Assembly (NCBI GenBank): GCA_027064085.1
Contig: JAMOQH010000187.1
Location: 1-26,292, forward strand
Length of the DNA stretch: 26,292 nucleotides
Direction of reading: 5' to 3'
Source: a bacterium
GTDB lineage: Bacteria > UBP6 > JAFGXH01
Part shown: piece after piece, positions 9,387 through 26,292 of the stretch
Layout of the letters: every line of letters starts with the position of its first letter
How positions within the stretch are numbered: position 1 is the first letter of the stretch
The notes under the pieces: model-generated
The model's database searches: none
Seen by the model: the letters and a program-made list of their open reading frames with translations, nothing else
Told to the model about the DNA's origin: nothing
Program-made: the position numbers and the translations under genes

Positions 9387-12368
9387 TTAATAATTAATCA
9401 TAACATTATCAAGTAAAGCATTAAATTCTGTATTCTTACCAGCTTTAATTTCTAGTCTACAGTCAACTCCTGCTTTCCAGAAATCATTAAGCTCATCACC
9501 AGTTGTAATTGTGTATGTAGTCCAATCAGCTTGGTTAAATTCAACATAAGAATTGCTTCCTGAATTAGTAAAAGTAGTTGATGTTGCATCAGCTAGATTA
9601 TAGAATTTTTGTTCTCCTGTTGTATAGGTATCAGCATTTAAATCACAAGCTATGTTAACTGTAATTTTACCACTTCCTTTCATTTCAAAAGATATAGAAG
9701 CAGGCTTGGTATCAGTCATAGTTGTAAGAGCTGTACTAATAACATATTTGTTTCCAGTTTCTGTACCAATAACAGATAATGCGAAGTCAGAATCTCTTAC
9801 TGTTTTTAACATTGCAAATCCTGAGTTACCAATTTTCCAATCTGTAGGTGTTGAGTCATCTGTCCAAGTTGCAAAGTTAGCATTTGGAAATTGAGGAGCT
9901 GTTCCACCAACACAAACATTATTGTCGCATGAAGTTGCACCATTTGTACAATCTTCTACTGCATTACACATACCTGGTTTTAAAGTACAAGTGTCAGTAG
10001 CTGTACATTCTTCCCAAGCATTACATGCTGGATTACATGTTGCTGCAGGAACTTCACAAGTATGATTTGTATTACATTCTTCTCCTGCCGTTGTATTACA
10101 ATCATTATTATCTGCACACATTCCAGGAGTTGTTGTACATGTATCAGTTGCTGTACATGTTTCCCATGCTTCACATGGAGTAGCACAAGTAAAAGTAACC
10201 AATTCCATATCAGTAGCAACTCTTAATACTAGCCTATAGTTAGTATCATATTGACCAACAACACCATCTAATTTAGATAAAACATTACCAACCACTAAAT
10301 CACCACTTAAAGAACCCTTTTTAAGTAAAAATGGGTTTCCGTCTTTATCTGTGATAGTAAAATCATATTGTCCCGCTTCAGTAACAGTAAAAGGTTGACC
10401 TGTTAAGCTTACATACATAGATTCATGAGTTTCAGCCATTGCATTACCAGCAACAGAAATAGCTGTAGGCATAGTTCCAGCACCACCATCTGTAACAGTA
10501 GCTTCTTTTAATTCCATAAAATTATGATATTCATCTAATTTACCTGTTACAGTAACATTATTACCTGCAACTACAGTTGGAGCAGAACCTAAGAATACAT
10601 ACATTCCAGCATTAGCATCTTGAAAATAAAAACCTTTACTATCAACACCTGTTACAGTACCTTCAGTAGTATAAACATTACCTACAGTTCCTGCTCTTAC
10701 TTGTGTAATTGTAATAGTTGCAGGGGCCGCAACACAATTCCCTGTAGCTGGGTCACATATTTTACCATCTGCAGCACAAGTATTTCCTGCACATAAATCA
10801 GTATTTCCACATACAGTAATAGCCGCGTTTTGTGAACAATCATAATCGTCACAGTCTATATGTCCATCATTATCGTTATCTACACCATCAGAACATTTTG
10901 CATCAGTATCTTCTGCTGAAGAATCAGTACAAGCATCATTTACACATACTTGACCAGCAGCACAGGTAACTCCACCACAAGTAACAGCACAAACTGTAAC
11001 ATTAGCATTTCTTGAACAAGACCAGTCTTCACAATCAGTATGTCCATTACCATCATTATCTATACCATCAGAACATTTTGCATCAGTATCTTCTGCTTCA
11101 GTAGCAACACAAGCATCATTTACACATACTTCACCAGTTGCACATTCAACTCCACCACATAAAACTTTACATACAGTTACTGCGGCATTTCTTGAACAAC
11201 TATGATCATCACAATCTGTATATCCATTACCATCATTATCAATACCGTCACTACATAAAGCATCTGTATTTTCATCAGCTTTTGCAACGCAAGTATCATT
11301 AGCACATACTTGATCTGCAGTACATTGAACTCCACCACATAAAGAACCATCGCTTACAACATCTGCTTTACTTGTAGGGAAAATAACGATTTCACCATAA
11401 TCAAGAGTCATAACTCCTTTAATAGCTGTAATCTTTTCATTTTGAGTAAAATCAACTCTTGGATATGAAAATGATGTTCCAATTAAAATTGATTTGTCTG
11501 CACTATCTTTTGCTGTAAATGTAAATTTACTATCTTTTCCGCATATTTTTCCTTCTTCACAGCTATCACCATTAGGGCAAGTACCATCTGTTCCACATTT
11601 AACCATATTTGTTAACTCAGTTACTGTAAAAGGAGCGTTTGTTAAGTTAACTAACATTGACTCATATTTTTCTTCGTAACTTACAGATGAAATATAAACT
11701 GCAGTAGGTATAGTTGCAGTTGCTGCACTAATTTCAACATCAGCTGTTGTTTGAGGGCTTAGTTCTGTTCTGTCAAAATATTCACTTAATTTACCACTTA
11801 TTTTAACTAGGTTACCTACAGCTAAATCTTTGAAATCTGCTTCAGTTTTAATAGTATCAAGATTTACATATATAGCGGCAAATTCAGTTTCTCCAGCTTG
11901 TTGAATAATAACTGCATGATGGCTTGAGGTTTTTAAACCTTTTACTCCAACAACAACACCTTCGAGTTTTTTAGTTAATATTTTACCTTTTTGATCACCG
12001 TAGTTACTACTCCATTTTCTTGCTTTAACAATAGTATCTAAGTCTTCTACATTAAAATCAACACATGAACCATCAGCTGGGTCACAAACTTGATCTTCAC
12101 CACAACTATTTCCTGCACATAAATCAACAGTATTAGATTCACATTCTCCAGTTACAGTATTACATGTTTCATCAGATTTACATTCAGGTGTACAAGCTTG
12201 TACTTCAACACATTCACCACTACCTGGGTCACAAACTTTACCTTCTGATGCACAAGTATTACCTTTGCATTTGTCTTGGGTAGTTGTACCATCATTACCA
12301 TCATCACAAGCGGTAAAAATCAGTGTCATTGATGCTATCAACAACATCAAAAAATAGGATATTTTCAT
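9387..12368 (-). CDS. Large repeat-rich surface lipoprotein with two OB-fold domains and C-terminal jelly-roll-like domain
   Basis: I start at the ATG at 12368, which has AAAGGAG upstream and a signal peptide ending in FTAC (Cys21). The longer reading to 12431 has neither. The 993 residues contain, in order: N-terminal Cys-rich 'CxGNxC...VCDPxxGxCV' modules (34-103); an OB-fold/DUF5689-like domain (about 111-338); three exact 60-residue repeats with CGG...CVNDxC and SDGIDNDGNGxTDC calcium-type loops (343-522); another 'CAGNTC...CDPATGNCV' module; a second OB-fold domain (551-726, with 'VYTTEGTVTGV' and 'FYFQDANAGMYVF'); Cys-rich 'CxxWExC' modules (727-820); and a jelly-roll, carbohydrate-binding-like end. 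No catalytic domain is recognisable. It likely acts in adhesion or binding on the cell surface. It has its own promoter and terminator. Confidence 0.75.
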   Translation of the reverse strand: MKISYFLMLLIASMTLIFTACDDGNDGTTTQDKCKGNTCASEGKVCDPGSGECVEVQACTPECKSDETCNTVTGECESNTVDLCAGNSCGEDQVCDPADGSCVDFNVEDLDTIVKARKWSSNYGDQKGKILTKKLEGVVVGVKGLKTSSHHAVIIQQAGETEFAAIYVNLDTIKTEADFKDLAVGNLVKISGKLSEYFDRTELSPQTTADVEISAATATIPTAVYISSVSYEEKYESMLVNLTNAPFTVTELTNMVKCGTDGTCPNGDSCEEGKICGKDSKFTFTAKDSADKSILIGTSFSYPRVDFTQNEKITAIKGVMTLDYGEIVIFPTSKADVVSDGSLCGGVQCTADQVCANDTCVAKADENTDALCSDGIDNDGNGYTDCDDHSCSRNAAVTVCKVLCGGVECATGEVCVNDACVATEAEDTDAKCSDGIDNDGNGHTDCEDWSCSRNANVTVCAVTCGGVTCAAGQVCVNDACTDSSAEDTDAKCSDGVDNDNDGHIDCDDYDCSQNAAITVCGNTDLCAGNTCAADGKICDPATGNCVAAPATITITQVRAGTVGNVYTTEGTVTGVDSKGFYFQDANAGMYVFLGSAPTVVAGNNVTVTGKLDEYHNFMELKEATVTDGGAGTMPTAISVAGNAMAETHESMYVSLTGQPFTVTEAGQYDFTITDKDGNPFLLKKGSLSGDLVVGNVLSKLDGVVGQYDTNYRLVLRVATDMELVTFTCATPCEAWETCTATDTCTTTPGMCADNNDCNTTAGEECNTNHTCEVPAATCNPACNAWEECTATDTCTLKPGMCNAVEDCTNGATSCDNNVCVGGTAPQFPNANFATWTDDSTPTDWKIGNSGFAMLKTVRDSDFALSVIGTETGNKYVISTALTTMTDTKPASISFEMKGSGKITVNIACDLNADTYTTGEQKFYNLADATSTTFTNSGSNSYVEFNQADWTTYTITTGDELNDFWKAGVDCRLEIKAGKNTEFNALLDNVMINY
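10803..11342 (-). repeat. Three in-frame 180-bp tandem repeats inside the large lipoprotein gene
   Basis: Residues 343-402, 403-462 and 463-522 of the encoded protein align without gaps as 60-residue units. Each starts with a CGGVxC motif, continues through CVNDxC and an Asp/Asn-Gly-rich loop (SDGIDNDGNG), and ends with a V-T-V-C-type strand. Copies 1 and 2 are closest; copy 3 diverges in the acidic loop (DNDNDG). The exact length conservation suggests one structural unit per repeat, and the Asp pattern suggests calcium binding. Confidence 0.85.
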
Positions 12369-12402
12369 ATCAACTCCTTTAAAAAAAATTAAACCTCGTT
12401 GT

Positions 12403-12431
12403 CTTTTATCGTAAATTCTTAAAATTGTCAA
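12403..12431 (-). promoter_or_regulatory. Candidate promoter of the large lipoprotein gene
   Basis: On the minus strand a perfect TTGACA (12431-12426) is followed by 17 bp and TAAAAG (12408-12403), a weak -10. A start near 12396 would leave a leader of about 28 bases containing the AAAGGAG site. Confidence 0.5.
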
Positions 12432-16901: not shown

Positions 16902-19727
16902 ATGTTTAAAAAATATAGTTTTTTATTACTTATCTTGAGTTTTTTTATTATTTCATGTAATGAGGATAATGTTGTTCATAATGATTTATGTGATAATAAA
17001 GATTGTGTTGTTCATAGTAGTTGTAAAGTTGAAAATAACAAAGCTGTTTGTTTATGTGATGCCGGTTTTCATGATGATAATGGAACATGTGTTGAGAATA
17101 CTGTTAAATGTGAAGCAAATAGTTGTACAGAAGAGCATAAAACAGTTTGTAGTGTTGAAAATAATGCGATAGTGTGCTTATGTGATGCTGGCTTTCATGA
17201 TGATAATGGAACATGTATTGAGGATACTGTTAAATGTGAAGCAAATAGTTGTACAGAAGAGCATAAAACAGTTTGTAGTGTTGAAAATAATGTGATTGTT
17301 TGTTTATGTGATGCTGGCTTTCATGATGAAGAAGGAAGTTGTGTTGTCGATACAGTAGTATGTCAAAATGATAGCTGTATTGATGCTCATAAATCTATCT
17401 GTTCTGTTGAAAATAATAAAATAGTATGTTCATGCGATGATGGGTTTCATGATGAAGGTGGAGCATGTATTGAAGATAGTGAACCTAAATGTAATCCTGA
17501 GTGTAAGAGTTGGGAAATATGTGATACCCGTCCAATGACTCCTATTTGCAAATTAAAAGAAGATAGGTGTAATGATAATCATGATTGTAGTGATATGATT
17601 TGTGATACAGATAGTCATTATTGTTATCCTGTAAAAACATCATGGAGTGTAATGCCCTCTGCAAATGGCTTTGGAGCTATTTTATTTGATAAAAATGAGA
17701 AAAAAATAAAAACCTATTATCCTCATATATATAAGCAAATGAATGAGAACTCTCCAGTAACGCCTAATTTAGTTTATGATTTTTATTTTGGAATAAGAGT
17801 AAATGGACAAAATACTTGGCTTAATGAAGTTGATGTAACTAATATGGAGTATATTGCAGGAACAGGAATAATAAAAGTAATAAGAGAGCTTTCGGGCTTG
17901 GAAATAACAGAATATTATTGGATGAGTATGCTTAGTGAGGCTCCTATTAGTGTGGCTGGTATTACAGTTAAAAATAAAACTGCTGATGTTTTAAATGATG
18001 TTTCTATATTTACTCTAGGTAATTTTAGAGTTGGAGCAGATAATAATAATGATGGAATACATATAAAAAATGAAAAAGCTGATTATGATGATACTCTACA
18101 TGGTTTTTACGAAAGAAATTGGGTATATCAATATAGTTATTATCAGATTTTTATGATGAGTGGTGGAGGAGCTCCAACTGTTGTATCAACTAATGCAAGT
18201 ACATATAATCCATGGCAAGAGGTTAAAAATAATAATATATTAAATGAATATAAATCAAGTGGAGAAACTGGAAAGGATGATGTAGCATTGTTTTATCAAA
18301 AGGACTTTACAACTATAAATTCAAATGAAGAAAAATCATATTATGTAGCTTGGAATGCTCAGTATACAAATAATGGTGCAGATGCTACTACTATTGCAAA
18401 TCCTATAAAAGACTTAATAGATAGTAAAAATTTTGAAGATGTTCTTAATGATGAAATAAATTATTGGAGTAATTGGCATAGTGTTGAAAACCTACCCGAA
18501 AATTTGACACCAAGAGAAGAAAAACTAGCAATTCAGTCTTCTGCTTTTATAAAAATGGGACAAATAAGAGAAGATATCAATGGTTATGGTCAAGTTTTAG
18601 CGTCATTACCTCCTGGAATATGGAATGTATCTTGGATAAGAGATATGAGCTATGCTGTTGTTGGTATGGTTAAGGCTAATCATATGAGTGAGGCTGTTGA
18701 TGCTTTAGAGTTTATTTTCGGAGATAAGGTAAATACAGGAAGGTATCAAGGAAGCGAATGGAATACTATAGGTCATGATTATCAAATTTCTGTTTGTAGA
18801 TATTTTGCTAATGGAGATGAAGAAACAGATTGGAATAGTGCTGGGCCTAATATAGAATACGATGGTTTTGGTTTAGCATTGTGGATATTAGATGAGTATA
18901 TTAGTGCAAATGGAGATGATACTGCTTTTTTAAATCAGTATAGTGATAATATTTTTACTAAAACAGCAGATGTTTTAGTGGCTTTAATAGATAATAATGG
19001 ACTTATCGCTCCCGATTCGTCTATTTGGGAGTACCATTGGACTGATGATGGTTATAATGGTAAAAGACATTTTGCTTATACCTCAATTACTGCTTACAGA
19101 GGCTTAAAGGCAGCAGAAAGGCTTGGAAATTTAATTGGAATGGATACAACGATATATCATGATACAGCAGAAAGTTTAAAAACTGCAATTGAAACCAATT
19201 TGGTAAAAAACCATGTGTTAATTAACTTTACTGATGAAGATGTTTCTAGTTTAGCTCCTGAAAACGGACAAAATATTTATAATATTGATGCATCAAGCGT
19301 AGAGGCATTTAATTTTGGTGTTTTTGAGCCAAATTCTCAAATTGCATCATCAACATTATCTGCTTATGAACAAGAATTAGGTAATTTATTATCAAATAGC
19401 CCTGGTTTTAAAAGAACAAATAAAAGATGTAATCCTTCTGCTCATGCTTCTTGTGTAGGAACAGCAGGTGGTGTTATGGCTAATGAATATGACATTAAAG
19501 AATGGATAATGGTTGACTTTAGAATTTTAAGCTTTTTAAGAAAACGAACAGATGAAGCTTCAAAAGAAAAGGCAAATAAGTTATATAATTGGATTTTAAC
19601 TCAAACAGAACATAATTATTACCAAATTGCAGAATTATATAATGAACAAACAGGTGATTATGCAGGTTCTGTTCCTATGTGTGGTTTTGGTCCAGGAGCT
19701 TATCTTATTGACTTAAATGAAAGATAG
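16902..19727 (+). CDS. Lipoprotein with EGF-like repeats and GH15 glucoamylase-type domain
   Basis: The signal peptide ends in IISC (Cys19) and the ATG has GAGGG upstream. Residues 26-192 are four EGF-like repeats of about 42 residues ('CSVENNxIVCLCDAGFHD'). Residues 197-241 form another Cys-rich module (CNPECKSWEIC). From about 250 to the end is a glycoside hydrolase family 15-like protein: a beta-sandwich then an alpha/alpha barrel with WIRDMSYAVVGM (578-589), IWEYHWTDDG (708-717, Glu710 the likely general acid) and NEQTGDYAGSVPMCGFGPGAY (in two parts from 914, Glu915 the likely base). GH15 enzymes release glucose from alpha-1,4/1,6 glucans or split trehalose-like sugars. A surface- or periplasm-anchored saccharide-degrading enzyme is expected; substrate is not determined. 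Placement after exbB-exbD-tonB hints at, but does not prove, coupling to TonB-dependent uptake. Confidence 0.85.
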   Translation: MFKKYSFLLLILSFFIISCNEDNVVHNDLCDNKDCVVHSSCKVENNKAVCLCDAGFHDDNGTCVENTVKCEANSCTEEHKTVCSVENNAIVCLCDAGFHDDNGTCIEDTVKCEANSCTEEHKTVCSVENNVIVCLCDAGFHDEEGSCVVDTVVCQNDSCIDAHKSICSVENNKIVCSCDDGFHDEGGACIEDSEPKCNPECKSWEICDTRPMTPICKLKEDRCNDNHDCSDMICDTDSHYCYPVKTSWSVMPSANGFGAILFDKNEKKIKTYYPHIYKQMNENSPVTPNLVYDFYFGIRVNGQNTWLNEVDVTNMEYIAGTGIIKVIRELSGLEITEYYWMSMLSEAPISVAGITVKNKTADVLNDVSIFTLGNFRVGADNNNDGIHIKNEKADYDDTLHGFYERNWVYQYSYYQIFMMSGGGAPTVVSTNASTYNPWQEVKNNNILNEYKSSGETGKDDVALFYQKDFTTINSNEEKSYYVAWNAQYTNNGADATTIANPIKDLIDSKNFEDVLNDEINYWSNWHSVENLPENLTPREEKLAIQSSAFIKMGQIREDINGYGQVLASLPPGIWNVSWIRDMSYAVVGMVKANHMSEAVDALEFIFGDKVNTGRYQGSEWNTIGHDYQISVCRYFANGDEETDWNSAGPNIEYDGFGLALWILDEYISANGDDTAFLNQYSDNIFTKTADVLVALIDNNGLIAPDSSIWEYHWTDDGYNGKRHFAYTSITAYRGLKAAERLGNLIGMDTTIYHDTAESLKTAIETNLVKNHVLINFTDEDVSSLAPENGQNIYNIDASSVEAFNFGVFEPNSQIASSTLSAYEQELGNLLSNSPGFKRTNKRCNPSAHASCVGTAGGVMANEYDIKEWIMVDFRILSFLRKRTDEASKEKANKLYNWILTQTEHNYYQIAELYNEQTGDYAGSVPMCGFGPGAYLIDLNER
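17100..17351 (+). repeat. Two near-identical 126-bp EGF-like tandem repeats
   Basis: Units 17100-17225 and 17226-17351 encode residues 67-108 and 109-150. Their first 67 bases are identical and most remaining differences are at the end of the unit. More diverged copies flank them (about 16977-17099 and 17352-17477). The high identity points to recent duplication or gene conversion. Confidence 0.85.
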
Positions 19728-20997: not shown

Positions 20998-22059
20998 ATG
21001 AATTTAAAAACTAAAATTTCACTTTCTAGCTTAGCATTTGTTGGAATTGTTGTTCTTTATCTAATGTTTACCGGGCAATCAGGCTTTGTCTATATTGAAC
21101 CAACAGAAATAGGGGTAAAAGTAAACAGGATAACTGGTTCTTTTGAAGTTCTTGAAAGTTCAGGTAACCATATTTTTATGCCCATAATTGAGCAGGTTTT
21201 TATTCTTGATTCTTCCCCTCAGAAATTTGTTATGTCTGGTAATAAGGATTTAAATGCTAATCATGTTAGAAAGCTAACTGTCAGGGCAAAAGATGGTAGT
21301 AATTTTTATTTTGGTGAAATAGAAATACAATATCAGATTATGGCATCAAAGGCAGAATTAATCGTTAGGGATTCTGGAGTGGGCGATTCATATAAAAGAA
21401 AATGGTTAAAGCCAATATCAAGAATGGTTTTGAGAAATGAATTTGGTAGATATTCATCAGAAGAGATAGCAAATCCAACTCAATATGGCTCTGCTGTAAC
21501 CAAATCAAAGGAAGAGCTTAATTTAATGCTAAATAATCATGGTATAAAAATTATTGATATTTCAACTCCAAAGCCTCACTTTGATCCTGTTTATGAAAAA
21601 ACTATTGAAACTAGAATTAATGCAGACCAAGAAGTCGCTAAACAAAAAGTTAAAAGAGAAAAATTAAATGCGGAGAAAAAATTTAGGGTGGATAAAATAA
21701 AAAATGATAAGGAAATAGAATATAGACAGATTGAAGGAGAATTAAAAAGAAAATTAATTGATATAAATAAACAATTTATTATGGTTAAAAAAGAAGCTGA
21801 AAAATATAAAATTGAACAAACAGGTATAGGAGAGGCTAAAAAGTCAGAACTTGAAACTATGGCTAAGGCAAGAATAGAACAATTTAAAATGGATGCAGAA
21901 GCTCTTTCTTCTAAAATTAAGGCCATGGAAGAACAAGGAAATGCTATAGTTTATAAAATTTTAGCAACTAAATATAGGAATATGAAAATTCACCTTCAAC
22001 CCTATACAACCGATGCAAGTCCACAGAGAGTTCAAGTTGAAAGTGTAGTAGCAAAATAG
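20998..22059 (+). CDS. SPFH/band 7 (prohibitin-like) membrane protein, first of a pair
   Basis: The 353-residue protein has one N-terminal membrane helix (about 9-27), a band 7/SPFH domain (about 30-200; 'YIEPTEIGVKVNRITGSFEVLESSGNHIFMP' read in parts, 'NNHGIKIIDISTPKPHFDPVYEKTIE') and a long charged coiled coil (about 200-325). SPFH proteins form large ring or cage assemblies at membranes that organise proteases or lipids (HflK/HflC, prohibitins, flotillins). An AGGAG site precedes the ATG. The second SPFH gene follows after 10 bases, so the two likely co-assemble as HflK and HflC do. No FtsH gene lies nearby, so an HflKC role is not assigned. Confidence 0.8.
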   Translation: MNLKTKISLSSLAFVGIVVLYLMFTGQSGFVYIEPTEIGVKVNRITGSFEVLESSGNHIFMPIIEQVFILDSSPQKFVMSGNKDLNANHVRKLTVRAKDGSNFYFGEIEIQYQIMASKAELIVRDSGVGDSYKRKWLKPISRMVLRNEFGRYSSEEIANPTQYGSAVTKSKEELNLMLNNHGIKIIDISTPKPHFDPVYEKTIETRINADQEVAKQKVKREKLNAEKKFRVDKIKNDKEIEYRQIEGELKRKLIDINKQFIMVKKEAEKYKIEQTGIGEAKKSELETMAKARIEQFKMDAEALSSKIKAMEEQGNAIVYKILATKYRNMKIHLQPYTTDASPQRVQVESVVAK

Positions 22060-22069
22060 AGGAGTAAAT

Positions 22070-23218
22070 ATGAGTAAATTAAAAAAGATACCTATAATTT
22101 TGTCAATAGTAGTATTAGCATTAATTTTGTTAAACAGTATGCTTTTTACTATGGTGCCAATTGATAAAATTGGAGTTAAGATAAATAAATGGGGTGGAAT
22201 AGTTGAAGAGGACTATGTTGTAGGATTAAAGTTTTCATTAGTTGGTATATATGAATGGAAATTTTTAGATGCGACAACACAATTTATTAATTTTTCTAAA
22301 CATGAAAGGGGGTCTGATCCATTAATCATTAGAACAGAAGATAATAATGAAGTTTATATAGATGTAACTGTTCCATATAAAATAATTAAGGGTGAAGGTT
22401 ATCAATTGGTAAAAGGTGGATTAGAAAAAACATATAAAGATAGAGTGGAATTGATAACTAAATCAGTATTAAGATCTGAATTGGCAAATTTATCTTTAAC
22501 AAGTAAAAAAGAAAAACAAAGGCAAAAAAAAGAACAAGATAATAGAGATAATAATATAAAGATAGATACTCAAAATGTCAAATCCAATACTAAAAATAAT
22601 GAAGAAACAATTATTGATACTGATTACAGAGAAAAGATAGCAAAAGAAGCTCTTAATAAATTAAATATTAAATTAAAAAAAGTTCATGTAAAAGCAGATT
22701 ATATCTTAATTAGGAGTTTTTATTTTATAAATAAAAAAGTTGAAAGAACAATTCAGGAAAAGCAATATCTTCGTCAAGAAAAGCTTCTAAAGCAAGCTCA
22801 ACTTAGAGAAAATGAAGCAAAATTAGCTACAAATAAAATAGAAACAGGAATAGTAAACGCAGAAAAGGCCGAAATTGAAAATGGTAATAAAAGAATAGAA
22901 GAGTTAAAGTCAAAGTATGAAATTCAAATAGCTGAAATAGAAAGAACTAAAAATAATTATGATAAAAGAGTAAGGGCAGAAGGAGATGCTAAAAGGGCTA
23001 TACTTGAATCACAAGGAAGATTAAAAATGGCTAAAGCTGATGCTTTAAAAATTAAACTTGAAGCCAAATTATTAAAATCAAAAGGTGGTAAAATTTTTAT
23101 TGCAAAACAAGTTGCAGAAAATCTTGATATGGGTGAAGTTTGGTTAAACTCTAACACTAAAAATCCTCTAAATATAGTTTCTTTAAAGTCTTTGCTAAAT
23201 TTAGTTACTCCTAAATAA
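22070..23218 (+). CDS. SPFH/band 7 (prohibitin-like) membrane protein, second of a pair
   Basis: The 382-residue paralogue of the upstream gene has an N-terminal membrane helix (about 8-30), an SPFH domain ('MVPIDKIGVKINKWGGIVEE', 'ITKSVLRSELANLS', 'VHVKADYILIRSFYFINKKVERTI') and a long coiled coil (about 215-345). Its SPFH domain is interrupted by a hydrophilic insert of about 45 residues (roughly 145-190) rich in Lys, Glu, Asn and Asp, absent from the first protein. Such a loop may project from the assembled cage. A GAGGAG site precedes the ATG, and the gene is co-transcribed with its partner. Confidence 0.8.
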   Translation: MSKLKKIPIILSIVVLALILLNSMLFTMVPIDKIGVKINKWGGIVEEDYVVGLKFSLVGIYEWKFLDATTQFINFSKHERGSDPLIIRTEDNNEVYIDVTVPYKIIKGEGYQLVKGGLEKTYKDRVELITKSVLRSELANLSLTSKKEKQRQKKEQDNRDNNIKIDTQNVKSNTKNNEETIIDTDYREKIAKEALNKLNIKLKKVHVKADYILIRSFYFINKKVERTIQEKQYLRQEKLLKQAQLRENEAKLATNKIETGIVNAEKAEIENGNKRIEELKSKYEIQIAEIERTKNNYDKRVRAEGDAKRAILESQGRLKMAKADALKIKLEAKLLKSKGGKIFIAKQVAENLDMGEVWLNSNTKNPLNIVSLKSLLNLVTPK

Positions 23219-23338: not shown

Positions 23339-24214
23339 TTATAATTCTACAATTAAATTCCATGGGCAATGAGAAACACACTCTCCACATTTTGTACACT
23401 TATCTTGGTCAATGAAGGCTTCTCCATTTACCATATGTAATGCATCATGATCACAAGAGCTTATACATCTACTACAACCTCTACAAGATGAAACAAAATA
23501 TTTAACAGGCACTTTGTTACCTTGATAGATAGCCTTTTCTGGGCATAATGGTTCACATTTACCACACTGAGTACATAACTCTGTATCTATAATTGCTTTA
23601 CCGTTAACCATGGTAATTGCATGTTCAGGGCAAGTACTAATACATTCTTCGCAACCTGTACACCAAGAAGATTTAACATGATAGTCAAGTGCTGGGTCTT
23701 TAGGTTCTGGCAAAGGTCCTCTAGTTATAGTTTCTTGAGGGCATATTTCTAAGCATTTATTGCAGTGAACACAAGTGTTTTGAGTGATTTCAGCTTTGCC
23801 ATTAGTTACAATTATTGAAGCTGTTGGACAAACATCTTCACAGTCTTTACAGCCTGTACAATTTTTTTCAACTACATGTAGAATATCATCTTTAGTTATT
23901 TTTCTATCATCATGAATAATTGCATCATAGGGGCAAATAACATAACATTCTCCACATTCAACACATAAATGTTCGTGAATTTTAACAGTATTTTCTTCTT
24001 GGGTTATTGTATCTCTTTCTATTTCAGGGCAAACAGCAAAACATTTTAAACAAGATGTACATAAATTATCTATAACTTTATATGGTCCTCCTGGAGCAAT
24101 CTTTTTATTTTTATTGTCATTAGTATTTGTTGAGTCACCATCTCCACAAGATGTTAAAAATGGCATAGTTATACTAAAAATAGATAAAGTTTTAATAAAA
24201 TCTTTTCTGTTCAT
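23339..24214 (-). CDS. Ferredoxin-like lipoprotein with eight predicted [4Fe-4S] clusters
   Basis: The 291-residue protein begins MNRKDFIKTL, then a hydrophobic stretch and lipobox LTSC (Cys23). The rest is four bis-ferredoxin modules holding eight complete CxxCxxCxxxC motifs whose first cysteines are at 52, 84, 119, 148, 185, 214, 244 and 273. All 32 non-lipobox cysteines are used; seven motifs end in CP and the seventh ends in CD. Each pair has the classic ferredoxin spacing with 'VNGKAxI' hairpins between. It should carry a chain of low-potential clusters outside the cytoplasm. The RKDFIK sequence resembles a Tat signal with Lys for the second Arg, which would suit export of a folded Fe-S protein. 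No hydrogenase, oxidoreductase or cytochrome is adjacent. A perfect-consensus promoter drives it. Confidence 0.88.
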   Translation of the reverse strand: MNRKDFIKTLSIFSITMPFLTSCGDGDSTNTNDNKNKKIAPGGPYKVIDNLCTSCLKCFAVCPEIERDTITQEENTVKIHEHLCVECGECYVICPYDAIIHDDRKITKDDILHVVEKNCTGCKDCEDVCPTASIIVTNGKAEITQNTCVHCNKCLEICPQETITRGPLPEPKDPALDYHVKSSWCTGCEECISTCPEHAITMVNGKAIIDTELCTQCGKCEPLCPEKAIYQGNKVPVKYFVSSCRGCSRCISSCDHDALHMVNGEAFIDQDKCTKCGECVSHCPWNLIVEL

Positions 24215-24235
24215 AAGTGCCTCAAGTAAAAAGGT

Positions 24236-24264
24236 ATTATAAAGACCTTATAGAAAAATGTCAA
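24236..24264 (-). promoter_or_regulatory. Perfect-consensus promoter of the Fe-S lipoprotein gene
   Basis: On the minus strand TTGACA (24264-24259), exactly 17 bp, then TATAAT (24241-24236): both boxes match the sigma70 consensus at every base. The start would be near 24229, with a 15-base leader containing GAGG before the ATG at 24214. Confidence 0.85.
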
Positions 24265-24295: not shown

Positions 24296-24320
24296 GATGT
24301 ACTTATTTAGGGAGATTGCT

Positions 24321-25661
24321 ATGAAATTTTTTCTATTTTTAATTATTTTAATAACTTTTTTAGCTGTTTCATGTATTGGAGAGAAGCTAAGTTCTAATGA
24401 AATAGGTTCAGATTGTACAACGAAAATATGTATGGAAAATAGTAATTGTACTATTGAAAATGATATGGCTGTTTGTAAATGTAATGAAGGATATGAACTT
24501 AAAAATGATAAATGTATTAATCCCGATAATTTAGAGATTCATCATTTGTTTGTAACTGGAGAAACAAAAACCGAAATAGAAAATGATGATGGTTATACTC
24601 AAAGAGGAATACAAAGAGCCTATAAAGAGGACAATGATTTAATTATTGATTCTAATACGGGGCTTTACTGGCAAAATAATGATAATGTTTCTGTAAAAAC
24701 ATGGGAAGAAGGTAAAAATTATTGTAAGAATCTTAATTTAGGTATAAATAAATGGAGATTGCCCTCCTATGAGGAATTATTAACTTTAATTGATTTAAAA
24801 TTTATTCCAACTGTTAATCCTATATTTTCACATATCTCACAAGGTAAATACTGGACTGATATTGAAGGTGATTTTAGTTATTCATACTATATTGATTTTT
24901 CAAATGGGGAAACGGGAAATTCTATTAAAAGTGAAAGTTATAATATTATTTGTGTTACCGGTGATTTTAAATTTAGTAGAAATAGTTTTTTAAATAATGA
25001 AAATGAAACATATACAGACGAAACAACTGGGCTTACATGGATAGAAAATTTAGAACAAAAAAATTGGGAAAATGCTGTTAAATACTGTGAAAATCTTGAT
25101 TTTGCAGATTATTCAGATTGGCATTTACCTAATATAAATGAATTATATACATTAATATATTCTTCTGTTATAGAGCCATTTGGTTTTTGGTCTTCAACTA
25201 CTTCATTTAACGATAATCAGTCAAGGGTTTTTGATATTGTAGGCCGAAAAAGTTATTCAGTTGATAAAAATGAGTTATTACAGGTAATATGTGTAAGAGG
25301 TGATAATTTTGCATCTTATGATAAAGGAAAATGGGGGGAGATTATTTTAAATAATAGATATGTTATCCCTAAAGATGTAACTTTTATTGATATCAGAACT
25401 CAATCAGAAAGAGATGGAGGCTGGCCTGAAAATTCTGTTTTTGGTGCAACTTATTCATCAGATAAAGATAAGTTTATTTCTGATATTTCAAATATTGTAA
25501 ATAATGATAAATCAAAACATATAATTTTAATTTGTGCATCAAGCGAGCATTCAAGTCATGCTGTTGAGATACTTTCAAATGCGGGATTTACCTATATTGA
25601 ACATATCATTGGTGGTACAAATAAGTGGAAAAGTTATAATCTGCCTTGGGTTACAGAATAG
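24321..25661 (+). CDS. Lipoprotein: EGF-like module, two DUF1566/Lcl domains, C-terminal rhodanese domain
   Basis: I start at 24321 (GGGAG upstream; lipobox AVSC, Cys18). Residues 32-65 form an EGF-like module (CTTKICMENSNC...CKCNEGY). Residues about 105-215 and 228-328 are two Lcl/DUF1566 domains, with 'DSNTGLYWQNN', 'NKWRLPSYEELLTLID' and 'DETTGLTWIEN', 'DWHLPNINELYTLI'. Residues about 335-446 are rhodanese-like: 'TFIDIRTQSERDGGWPENS', then the active-site loop CASSEHSS (Cys405) and 'GGTNKWKSYNLPW'. The loop differs from the usual CRxGxRS, with His410 in place of Arg. Rhodanese domains carry persulfide or sense sulfur and redox state. Export as a lipoprotein suggests an extracytoplasmic sulfur or thiol role. 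It is divergent from the eight-cluster Fe-S lipoprotein. Confidence 0.82.
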   Translation: MKFFLFLIILITFLAVSCIGEKLSSNEIGSDCTTKICMENSNCTIENDMAVCKCNEGYELKNDKCINPDNLEIHHLFVTGETKTEIENDDGYTQRGIQRAYKEDNDLIIDSNTGLYWQNNDNVSVKTWEEGKNYCKNLNLGINKWRLPSYEELLTLIDLKFIPTVNPIFSHISQGKYWTDIEGDFSYSYYIDFSNGETGNSIKSESYNIICVTGDFKFSRNSFLNNENETYTDETTGLTWIENLEQKNWENAVKYCENLDFADYSDWHLPNINELYTLIYSSVIEPFGFWSSTTSFNDNQSRVFDIVGRKSYSVDKNELLQVICVRGDNFASYDKGKWGEIILNNRYVIPKDVTFIDIRTQSERDGGWPENSVFGATYSSDKDKFISDISNIVNNDKSKHIILICASSEHSSHAVEILSNAGFTYIEHIIGGTNKWKSYNLPWVTE

Positions 25662-25945: not shown

Positions 25946-26292
25946 TTACCGAACTATTGCTATATTTAACTCTTTTTGTAATTCTTTAACTTTTTTAATA
26001 GATAATTTAGTATATTTTTGTACAAATGCTATTTCGGCACCATCTTTTAACATCTCAATTGCTGTTTCTATTTTACCCTTTTCTATACCCTTTTCTATAC
26101 CTTTTTCTATACCCTTTTCTATGCCTTTTTCTATACCCTTTTCTATGCCTTTTTCTATACCTTTTTCTATGCCTTTTTTTTCTCCTCTTTCTTCTATTTC
26201 GTTAAGTAATCTCATCATTCCACCCATTTTATCCTCCTTATTTAATGTTTGTAGTGCATCTTCAACATTTATTCTATCACTTGATATTAATT
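25946..26292 (-). CDS. Rpn/PD-(D/E)XK nuclease family protein, C-terminal part (5' end outside the window)
   Basis: The reading frame stays open from the stop at 25946 to the window edge (first whole codon at 26290), so only the last 115 or so residues are seen. An ATG at 26227 with GGAG upstream is internal or an alternative start. The segment has 'RLLNEIEERGEKKG', eight GIEK units, then 'KIETAIEMLKDGAEIAFVQKYTKLSIKKVKELQKE'. This is the typical tail of Rpn-family recombination-promoting nucleases (transposase_31 type), with a repetitive helix followed by a small helical motif. The nuclease core is not in view. These proteins are usually multicopy mobile-like genes. Confidence 0.7.
   Translation of the reverse strand, partial: LISSDRINVEDALQTLNKEDKMGGMMRLLNEIEERGEKKGIEKGIEKGIEKGIEKGIEKGIEKGIEKGIEKGKIETAIEMLKDGAEIAFVQKYTKLSIKKVKELQKELNIAIVR
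26076..26171 (-). repeat. 12-bp tandem repeat, eight units, inside the Rpn-type gene
   Basis: Eight contiguous 12-bp units of the form CC(C/T)TTTTCTAT(A/G) on the plus strand encode Ile-Glu-Lys-Gly in the minus-strand gene. Unit length is a multiple of three, so copy-number change would keep the frame. Variation is limited to the third positions of the Lys and Gly codons. Confidence 0.9.

Follow-up and report, generated by a model that had tools for sequence, protein, structure and literature searches.

A probable exported, lipid-anchored polyferredoxin with eight [4Fe-4S] motifs in a bacterium of the UBP6 lineage

Introduction

To our knowledge, almost all known trans-envelope electron conduits depend on multihaem cytochromes. 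In porin-cytochrome systems of the Pcc/MtrAB type, a barrel-like outer-membrane protein is encoded beside exported multi-centre redox proteins, some of which are lipoproteins (PMC4245776). In the polyferredoxins FwdF/FmdF and MvhB/VhuB of methanogens, tandem 2[4Fe-4S] modules on one chain act as an electron relay. These polyferredoxins are subunits of cytoplasmic enzyme complexes. FwdF is described as containing six [4Fe-4S] clusters per monomer (PMC11656701). In the filaments of AOR and HDCR, the ferredoxin subunits AorA and HycB3-HycB4 are aligned as an electron-conducting chain (PMC10413684). The quinol dehydrogenase NapG/NapH pairs a periplasmic [4Fe-4S] protein exported by Tat (NapG) with a ferredoxin of the membrane (NapH) (PMC5449189).

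The 26,292-nucleotide stretch of bacterial DNA analysed here (the window) encodes a 291-residue protein that appears to be an exported lipid-anchored polyferredoxin. The sequence observations on which the first-pass annotation based this description were confirmed, and its interpretation is partly supported. The protein resembles the methanogen polyferredoxins in its tandem 2[4Fe-4S] modules, single chain and proposed electron relay, but, unlike FwdF and MvhB, it is a lipoprotein without an adjacent enzyme partner. MvhB (E=2e-27) and FwdF (E=4e-18) are its best matches by sequence among solved structures, and it falls far below the NCBIfam cut-offs of both VhuB (100 versus 600 bits) and FwdF (88 versus 375 bits). 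The chains of AorA and HycB3-HycB4 polymerise from small enzyme-decorated subunits, whereas the window protein is one polypeptide with an export and lipidation signal. NapG has four predicted clusters, whereas the window protein has eight motifs and a lipobox, and its genome lacks a detectable Fer4_5/NapH protein; the likeness to NapGH lies in relatives from Bacteroidota, which are encoded beside NapH-like proteins. The likeness to Pcc/MtrAB similarly concerns the gene logic of the relatives, which combine barrel-like with exported redox proteins; there, however, ferredoxin motifs replace haems, and the source genome of the window lacks the barrel. Our searches of the open-licence literature turned up neither an exported polyferredoxin lipoprotein nor a porin-ferredoxin cluster.

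Results

A solitary gene with a consensus promoter match

The polyferredoxin gene is preceded by a sigma-70-type promoter-like sequence that ends 21 nt ahead of the start codon (Table 1). The gene is solitary, flanked on one side by a tandem pair of SPFH genes and on the other by a divergent lipoprotein gene. It is unlinked to any enzyme, which bears out the earlier claim that no partner enzyme is adjacent. The two adjoining SPFH/Band 7 genes (20998-22059 and 22070-23218, + strand) belong to PF01145, and the product of the divergent gene (24297-25661, + strand) is composed of two Lcl_C domains and a C-terminal rhodanese domain. The window also contains a small open reading frame with tandem GIEKGIEK repeats (25946-26227, - strand) and two large lipoproteins with cysteine-rich repeats, which are of the CSDGIDNDGNGHTDCEDWSC type in one (9387-12431, - strand) and comprise four N-terminal EGF-like repeats in the other (16902-19727, + strand).

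Table 1. Coordinates of the polyferredoxin gene, its signals and modules, and of related loci.
Feature	Position	Strand	Description
Eight-cluster polyferredoxin lipoprotein gene	23339..24214	-	291 aa + stop; Pfam Fer4 families throughout
Consensus promoter TTGACA-17-TATAAT	24236..24264	-	12/12 matches; consensus match only
Likely ribosome-binding site GAGG	24220..24223	-	5 nt ahead of ATG
Putative signal peptide, residues 1-23	24146..24214	-	Tat-like N-R-K-D-F-I-K, weakly hydrophobic TLSIFSITMPFL, lipobox LTSC
Polar linker, residues 24-51	24062..24145	-	GDGDSTNTNDNKNKKIAPGGPYKVIDNL; putative lipoprotein tether; +2 residue Gly, not Asp
Predicted bis-[4Fe-4S] module 1	23924..24061	-	motifs at 52, 84
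Predicted bis-[4Fe-4S] module 2	23732..23860	-	motifs at 119, 148
Predicted bis-[4Fe-4S] module 3	23528..23662	-	motifs at 185, 214
Predicted bis-[4Fe-4S] module 4	23351..23485	-	motifs at 244, 273
Ferredoxin clusters within the phylum	L097:9858-11899; L098:7371-10138; L099:7189-9213; L101:1-1698; L141:2564-4916; L142:7384-9054
Bacteroidota three-gene loci	L007:49-3196; L008:407-5084

Orphan electron carriers are common, which counts in favour of the window protein being a periplasmic electron-transfer subunit, similar to NapG or NrfC, of a respiratory enzyme encoded elsewhere, with no role at the cell surface. The source genome offers such an enzyme on contig C6, where an operon codes for a PhsA-like molybdopterin enzyme bearing a canonical Tat signal, together with a cytochrome b, a ferredoxin and a cytochrome c that contains four CxxCH motifs; this cytochrome c matches the MtrC/MtrF domain below threshold. 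The products of this operon are possible partners of the window protein. NapG, being Tat-dependent and periplasmic with four predicted [4Fe-4S] clusters, provides a precedent (PMC5449189). However, the operon already includes a 211-aa ferredoxin subunit and cytochromes. In addition, eight clusters and a lipid anchor are atypical of a NapG/NrfC-like subunit, and the window gene has no linkage to an enzyme. We therefore consider such a function unlikely. The operon on contig C6 is tandemly duplicated (L092:8084-20000); the three downstream genes do not differ between the copies, and a long methionine-rich insertion (MMKQLLPLMNPQMMKDMTP...) is found in one of the catalytic subunits.

Eight motifs arranged as four modules

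The protein contains 33 cysteines, of which Cys23 belongs to the lipobox and the other 32 form eight CxxCxxCxxxC motifs, with none to spare. The motifs start at residues 52, 84, 119, 148, 185, 214, 244, and 273, and the last ends at residue 283. The first-pass annotation, which had placed a lipobox at Cys23 and eight motifs within residues 52-283 using all other cysteines, was correct in every detail. Shuffling of the mature sequence yielded on average 0.043 motifs and at most two in 20,000 trials, versus the eight observed. The CxxCxxCxxxC motif is absent from all other open reading frames of at least 40 codons in the window. Only Fer4-type domains of Pfam match the protein (Fer4, E=4e-41).

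The starts of consecutive motifs are separated by 32, 35, 29, 37, 29, 30, and 29 residues, and the eight motifs thus group into four bis-cluster modules. Clostridial 2[4Fe-4S] ferredoxins have a motif spacing of 29 residues, the value seen within modules 2-4; the spacing within module 1 is 32. The four bis-[4Fe-4S] modules proposed at first reading are borne out by these spacings and by the Fer4 families. From this arrangement, we infer a wire of four modules, in which each motif would be occupied by a cluster and the eight-cluster chain would have a wire-like geometry. An AlphaFold2 model of the polyferredoxin, computed from an alignment of three rows (A1), has a pLDDT of 36 and gives no usable distances between clusters.

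A Tat-like signal peptide and a lipobox

The export route, which bears on whether an Fe-S protein can function outside the cytoplasm, was not addressed in the first-pass annotation. The N-terminus of the protein, MNRKDFIKTLSIFSITMPFLTSC, begins with MNRKDFIK and has the twin-arginine layout R-K-x-F-I-K, with lysine replacing the second arginine. The Tat motif RRxF[LIV]K thus reads RKDFIK in the window protein, an RK variant, whereas its Bacteroidota relatives L007 and L008 carry RR. The lipobox LTSC is formed by residues 20-23. As a control, we compared the Kyte-Doolittle hydropathy of the best 12-residue stretch of each signal. The value for the window protein is 1.62, within the range of signals with the RR motif (1.51-1.72; L007 1.72, L008 1.67, and a molybdopterin enzyme from the same genome 1.51) and far under that of five Sec lipoproteins from the same window (2.96-3.63). 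Low hydrophobicity is a determinant of Tat over Sec handling (PMC5449189). The source genome encodes TatC (E=7.5e-60) and a canonical Tat substrate, the molybdopterin enzyme with the signal TRRAFLK. Export and lipid anchoring, as claimed originally, are supported by the Tat-like signal, the lipobox, the presence of TatC and the hydropathy control. We conclude that the window protein is likely to be exported by Tat and then lipidated, the chief caveat being its RK motif. The Tat-like signal implies that the Fe-S protein would be exported folded. According to the E. coli sorting rule, aspartate after the lipidated cysteine causes retention in the inner membrane. The residue at position +2 of the window protein is glycine, so inner-membrane retention would not be expected under this rule.

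The RK motif in place of RR would also fit a protein that uses the Sec route or stays unexported, and whose cysteines do not hold [4Fe-4S] clusters in vivo or bind another metal, as in a metal-buffering lipoprotein. Relatives within the phylum export ferredoxin-like lipoproteins by clear Sec signals, and the unfolded export of such sequences therefore seems to occur in the phylum. Against this stand the hydropathy of the signal, which is that of Tat and not of Sec lipoproteins, and the strict CxxCxxCxxxC spacing, the bis-module spacing and the Fer4 scores, which are those of [4Fe-4S] ferredoxins and not of metallothioneins. These features make this alternative very unlikely.

Longer polyferredoxins in Bacteroidota

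Exact back-translated patterns searched against 84,980 genomes identified two full-length relatives, L007 and L008, both from Bacteroidota metagenome-assembled genomes. The L007 protein is 337 residues long, has the signal ERREFIKK...LKAC, and contains 41 cysteines, one in the lipobox and 40 sufficient for ten clusters. The L008 protein is 672 residues long, has the signal SRRKFLK...LSGC, and contains 82 cysteines, namely C3, that of the lipobox, and 80 for twenty clusters. The first-pass annotation had named homologues encoded as cytoplasmic subunits of a known complex as evidence against its reading; both proteins instead have canonical RR-Tat signals and lipoboxes. Two other loci that at first resembled long matches, L012 and L079, are cytoplasmic Nuo-type gene sets and were rejected. 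No relatives were found in viral or plasmid collections.

In both Bacteroidota loci, the gene of a NapH-like membrane ferredoxin is followed tightly by those of a barrel-like protein and of the Tat lipoprotein polyferredoxin. The NapH-like proteins are 33% identical to each other and match TIGR02163 with E of about 1e-20, under the curated cut-off. The barrel-like proteins (418-476 residues, 27% identical, E=2e-49) have signal peptides and match no Pfam family; an AlphaFold2 model of the barrel from an alignment of two rows (A2) has a pLDDT of 28. Since NapG and NapH are an established pair of Tat-exported and membrane ferredoxins, the two loci resemble a lengthened NapGH system, perhaps provided with an exit at the outer membrane.

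We did not accept orthology of the window protein with L007 and L008: the full-length identity of 28-30% is driven by cysteines, and the proteins are placed apart in a tree of modules. We therefore treat the Bacteroidota proteins as a parallel case. Proteins of the L007 type were found neither in the 386 genomes of the relatives sample nor in 395 Bacteroidota genomes, and the Bacteroidota barrel was not found in 294 genomes; both negatives are weak, as the searches had no positive-control genome and scored few candidates per genome.

The cluster number varies among relatives (8, 10, and 20), which would fit capacity as well as length, and the gene in the source genome has no adjacent partner, but a chain serving as an electron reservoir, a storage device or capacitor instead of a two-ended wire, is highly improbable given the directed transfer suggested by the three-gene order in Bacteroidota (NapH-like protein, putative barrel, polyferredoxin) and by the adjacency of ferredoxins to barrels within the phylum.

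Exported ferredoxins beside putative barrels within the phylum

The eight-cluster protein is absent from the other 27 phylum genomes in our collection (28 with the source genome). Seven of them, from three families (G010, G012, G014 with two loci, G017, G019, G020, and G024), carry clusters of genes for smaller exported ferredoxins. These gene clusters code for a ferredoxin that has a Sec signal and two to four [4Fe-4S] clusters, and for a two-cluster lipoprotein ferredoxin, also with a Sec signal (e.g. MRLLLCALLFVGMLVSCGMDPS...). Some loci add a longer lipoprotein whose C-terminus carries a bis-cluster module (e.g. MYRLLIVLIFLILAGCGDNFERDK...). In G020, the ferredoxin reading frame crosses an assembly gap, and its cluster number is therefore uncertain. 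Because their signals are of the Sec and not of the Tat type, these ferredoxins are not simple orthologues of the window protein. The apparent Sec export of [4Fe-4S]-type lipoproteins is puzzling, as Fe-S clusters would then have to be assembled outside the cytoplasm. In G024, two lipoprotein genes are located just upstream of the ferredoxin cluster (L097:6897-9838), and the second encodes an arylsulfotransferase (PF05935).

The lipoprotein ferredoxin is directly adjoined in all eight loci by a protein of about 400-420 residues (family A4) that has a signal peptide, usually a C-terminal phenylalanine, and the appearance of an outer-membrane barrel; the G012 copy is cut by the contig end. Queries with the ferredoxin and with the barrel return the same eight places, and the A4 profile has no matches beyond them in 386 genomes. 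The β-amphipathicity of the barrels is weakly above that of shuffled sequences (z 1.2-2.3, with one control at 1.4). No homology to any Pfam porin was detected, nor any relation between the barrel families of the phylum and of Bacteroidota. Judged by its sequence, the A4 protein may be an outer-membrane barrel.

We compared 42 ungapped bis-modules in a tree; the similarities span about 42 positions and are modestly supported. Modules from L086, L088, and L106 belong to exported clusters despite their CYT label in the tree. Among the modules compared, the nearest to module 3 of the window protein are those of exported ferredoxins from these gene clusters; it shares 19 of 42 non-cysteine positions with the lipoprotein ferredoxin of G014, with which module 4 also pairs (support 0.79). 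Module 2 more closely resembles ferredoxin domains of cytoplasmic proteins. Because the library is small and biased, a kinship of modules 3 and 4 with the exported lipoprotein ferredoxins of other families in the phylum is suggestive only.

Discussion

We conclude that the window protein is probably a Tat-exported polyferredoxin, lipidated at Cys23, whose four clostridial-type bis-[4Fe-4S] modules would relay low-potential electrons in the cell envelope. The eight clusters would be loaded and the chain folded in the cytoplasm. The folded chain would then cross the membrane by the Tat route, using the RK variant of the twin-arginine motif. Lipidation at Cys23 would tether it to the periplasmic face of the inner membrane or to the outer membrane, where low-potential electrons could pass along the eight clusters between redox partners of the envelope. 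The membrane of destination, the partners and the direction of electron flow are inferred parts of this scheme.

The proposal of the first-pass annotation that the protein is an electron wire of the envelope was partly supported: export, anchor, modules, the lack of an adjacent enzyme and the non-cytoplasmic homologues agree with it. An envelope-spanning role gains comparative support, from evidence outside the view of that annotation, in the barrel-adjacent exported ferredoxins of the phylum and of Bacteroidota. No electron-transfer partner was found in the source genome. At 94.7% completeness, this genome contains no match to a NapH-type or Fer4_5 protein, and a profile search found the A4 barrel neither in it nor in its two family members.

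Within its lineage, the window protein appears to be a one-chain counterpart of the small ferredoxins that are exported by relatives in the phylum and encoded there beside the putative barrel. As such a counterpart, its most interesting function would be trans-envelope electron transfer, and we hypothesize that extracellular electron transfer by the window protein is plausible. More tentatively, we speculate that the phylum may possess a haem-free conduit across the outer membrane, in which lipoprotein ferredoxins and a lineage-specific barrel replace multihaem cytochromes, with the window protein as a single-chain version. Bacteroidota would then have evolved a parallel system composed of a NapH-like input, lipoprotein wires of 10-20 clusters, and a different barrel. 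This broader proposal draws comparative support from the relatives and is possible, although we regard it as doubtful at present. If true, it would provide a haem-free alternative to the known conduits, running at lower potential. Genome screens that search for electroactive bacteria by counting CxxCH motifs would overlook such ferredoxin systems.
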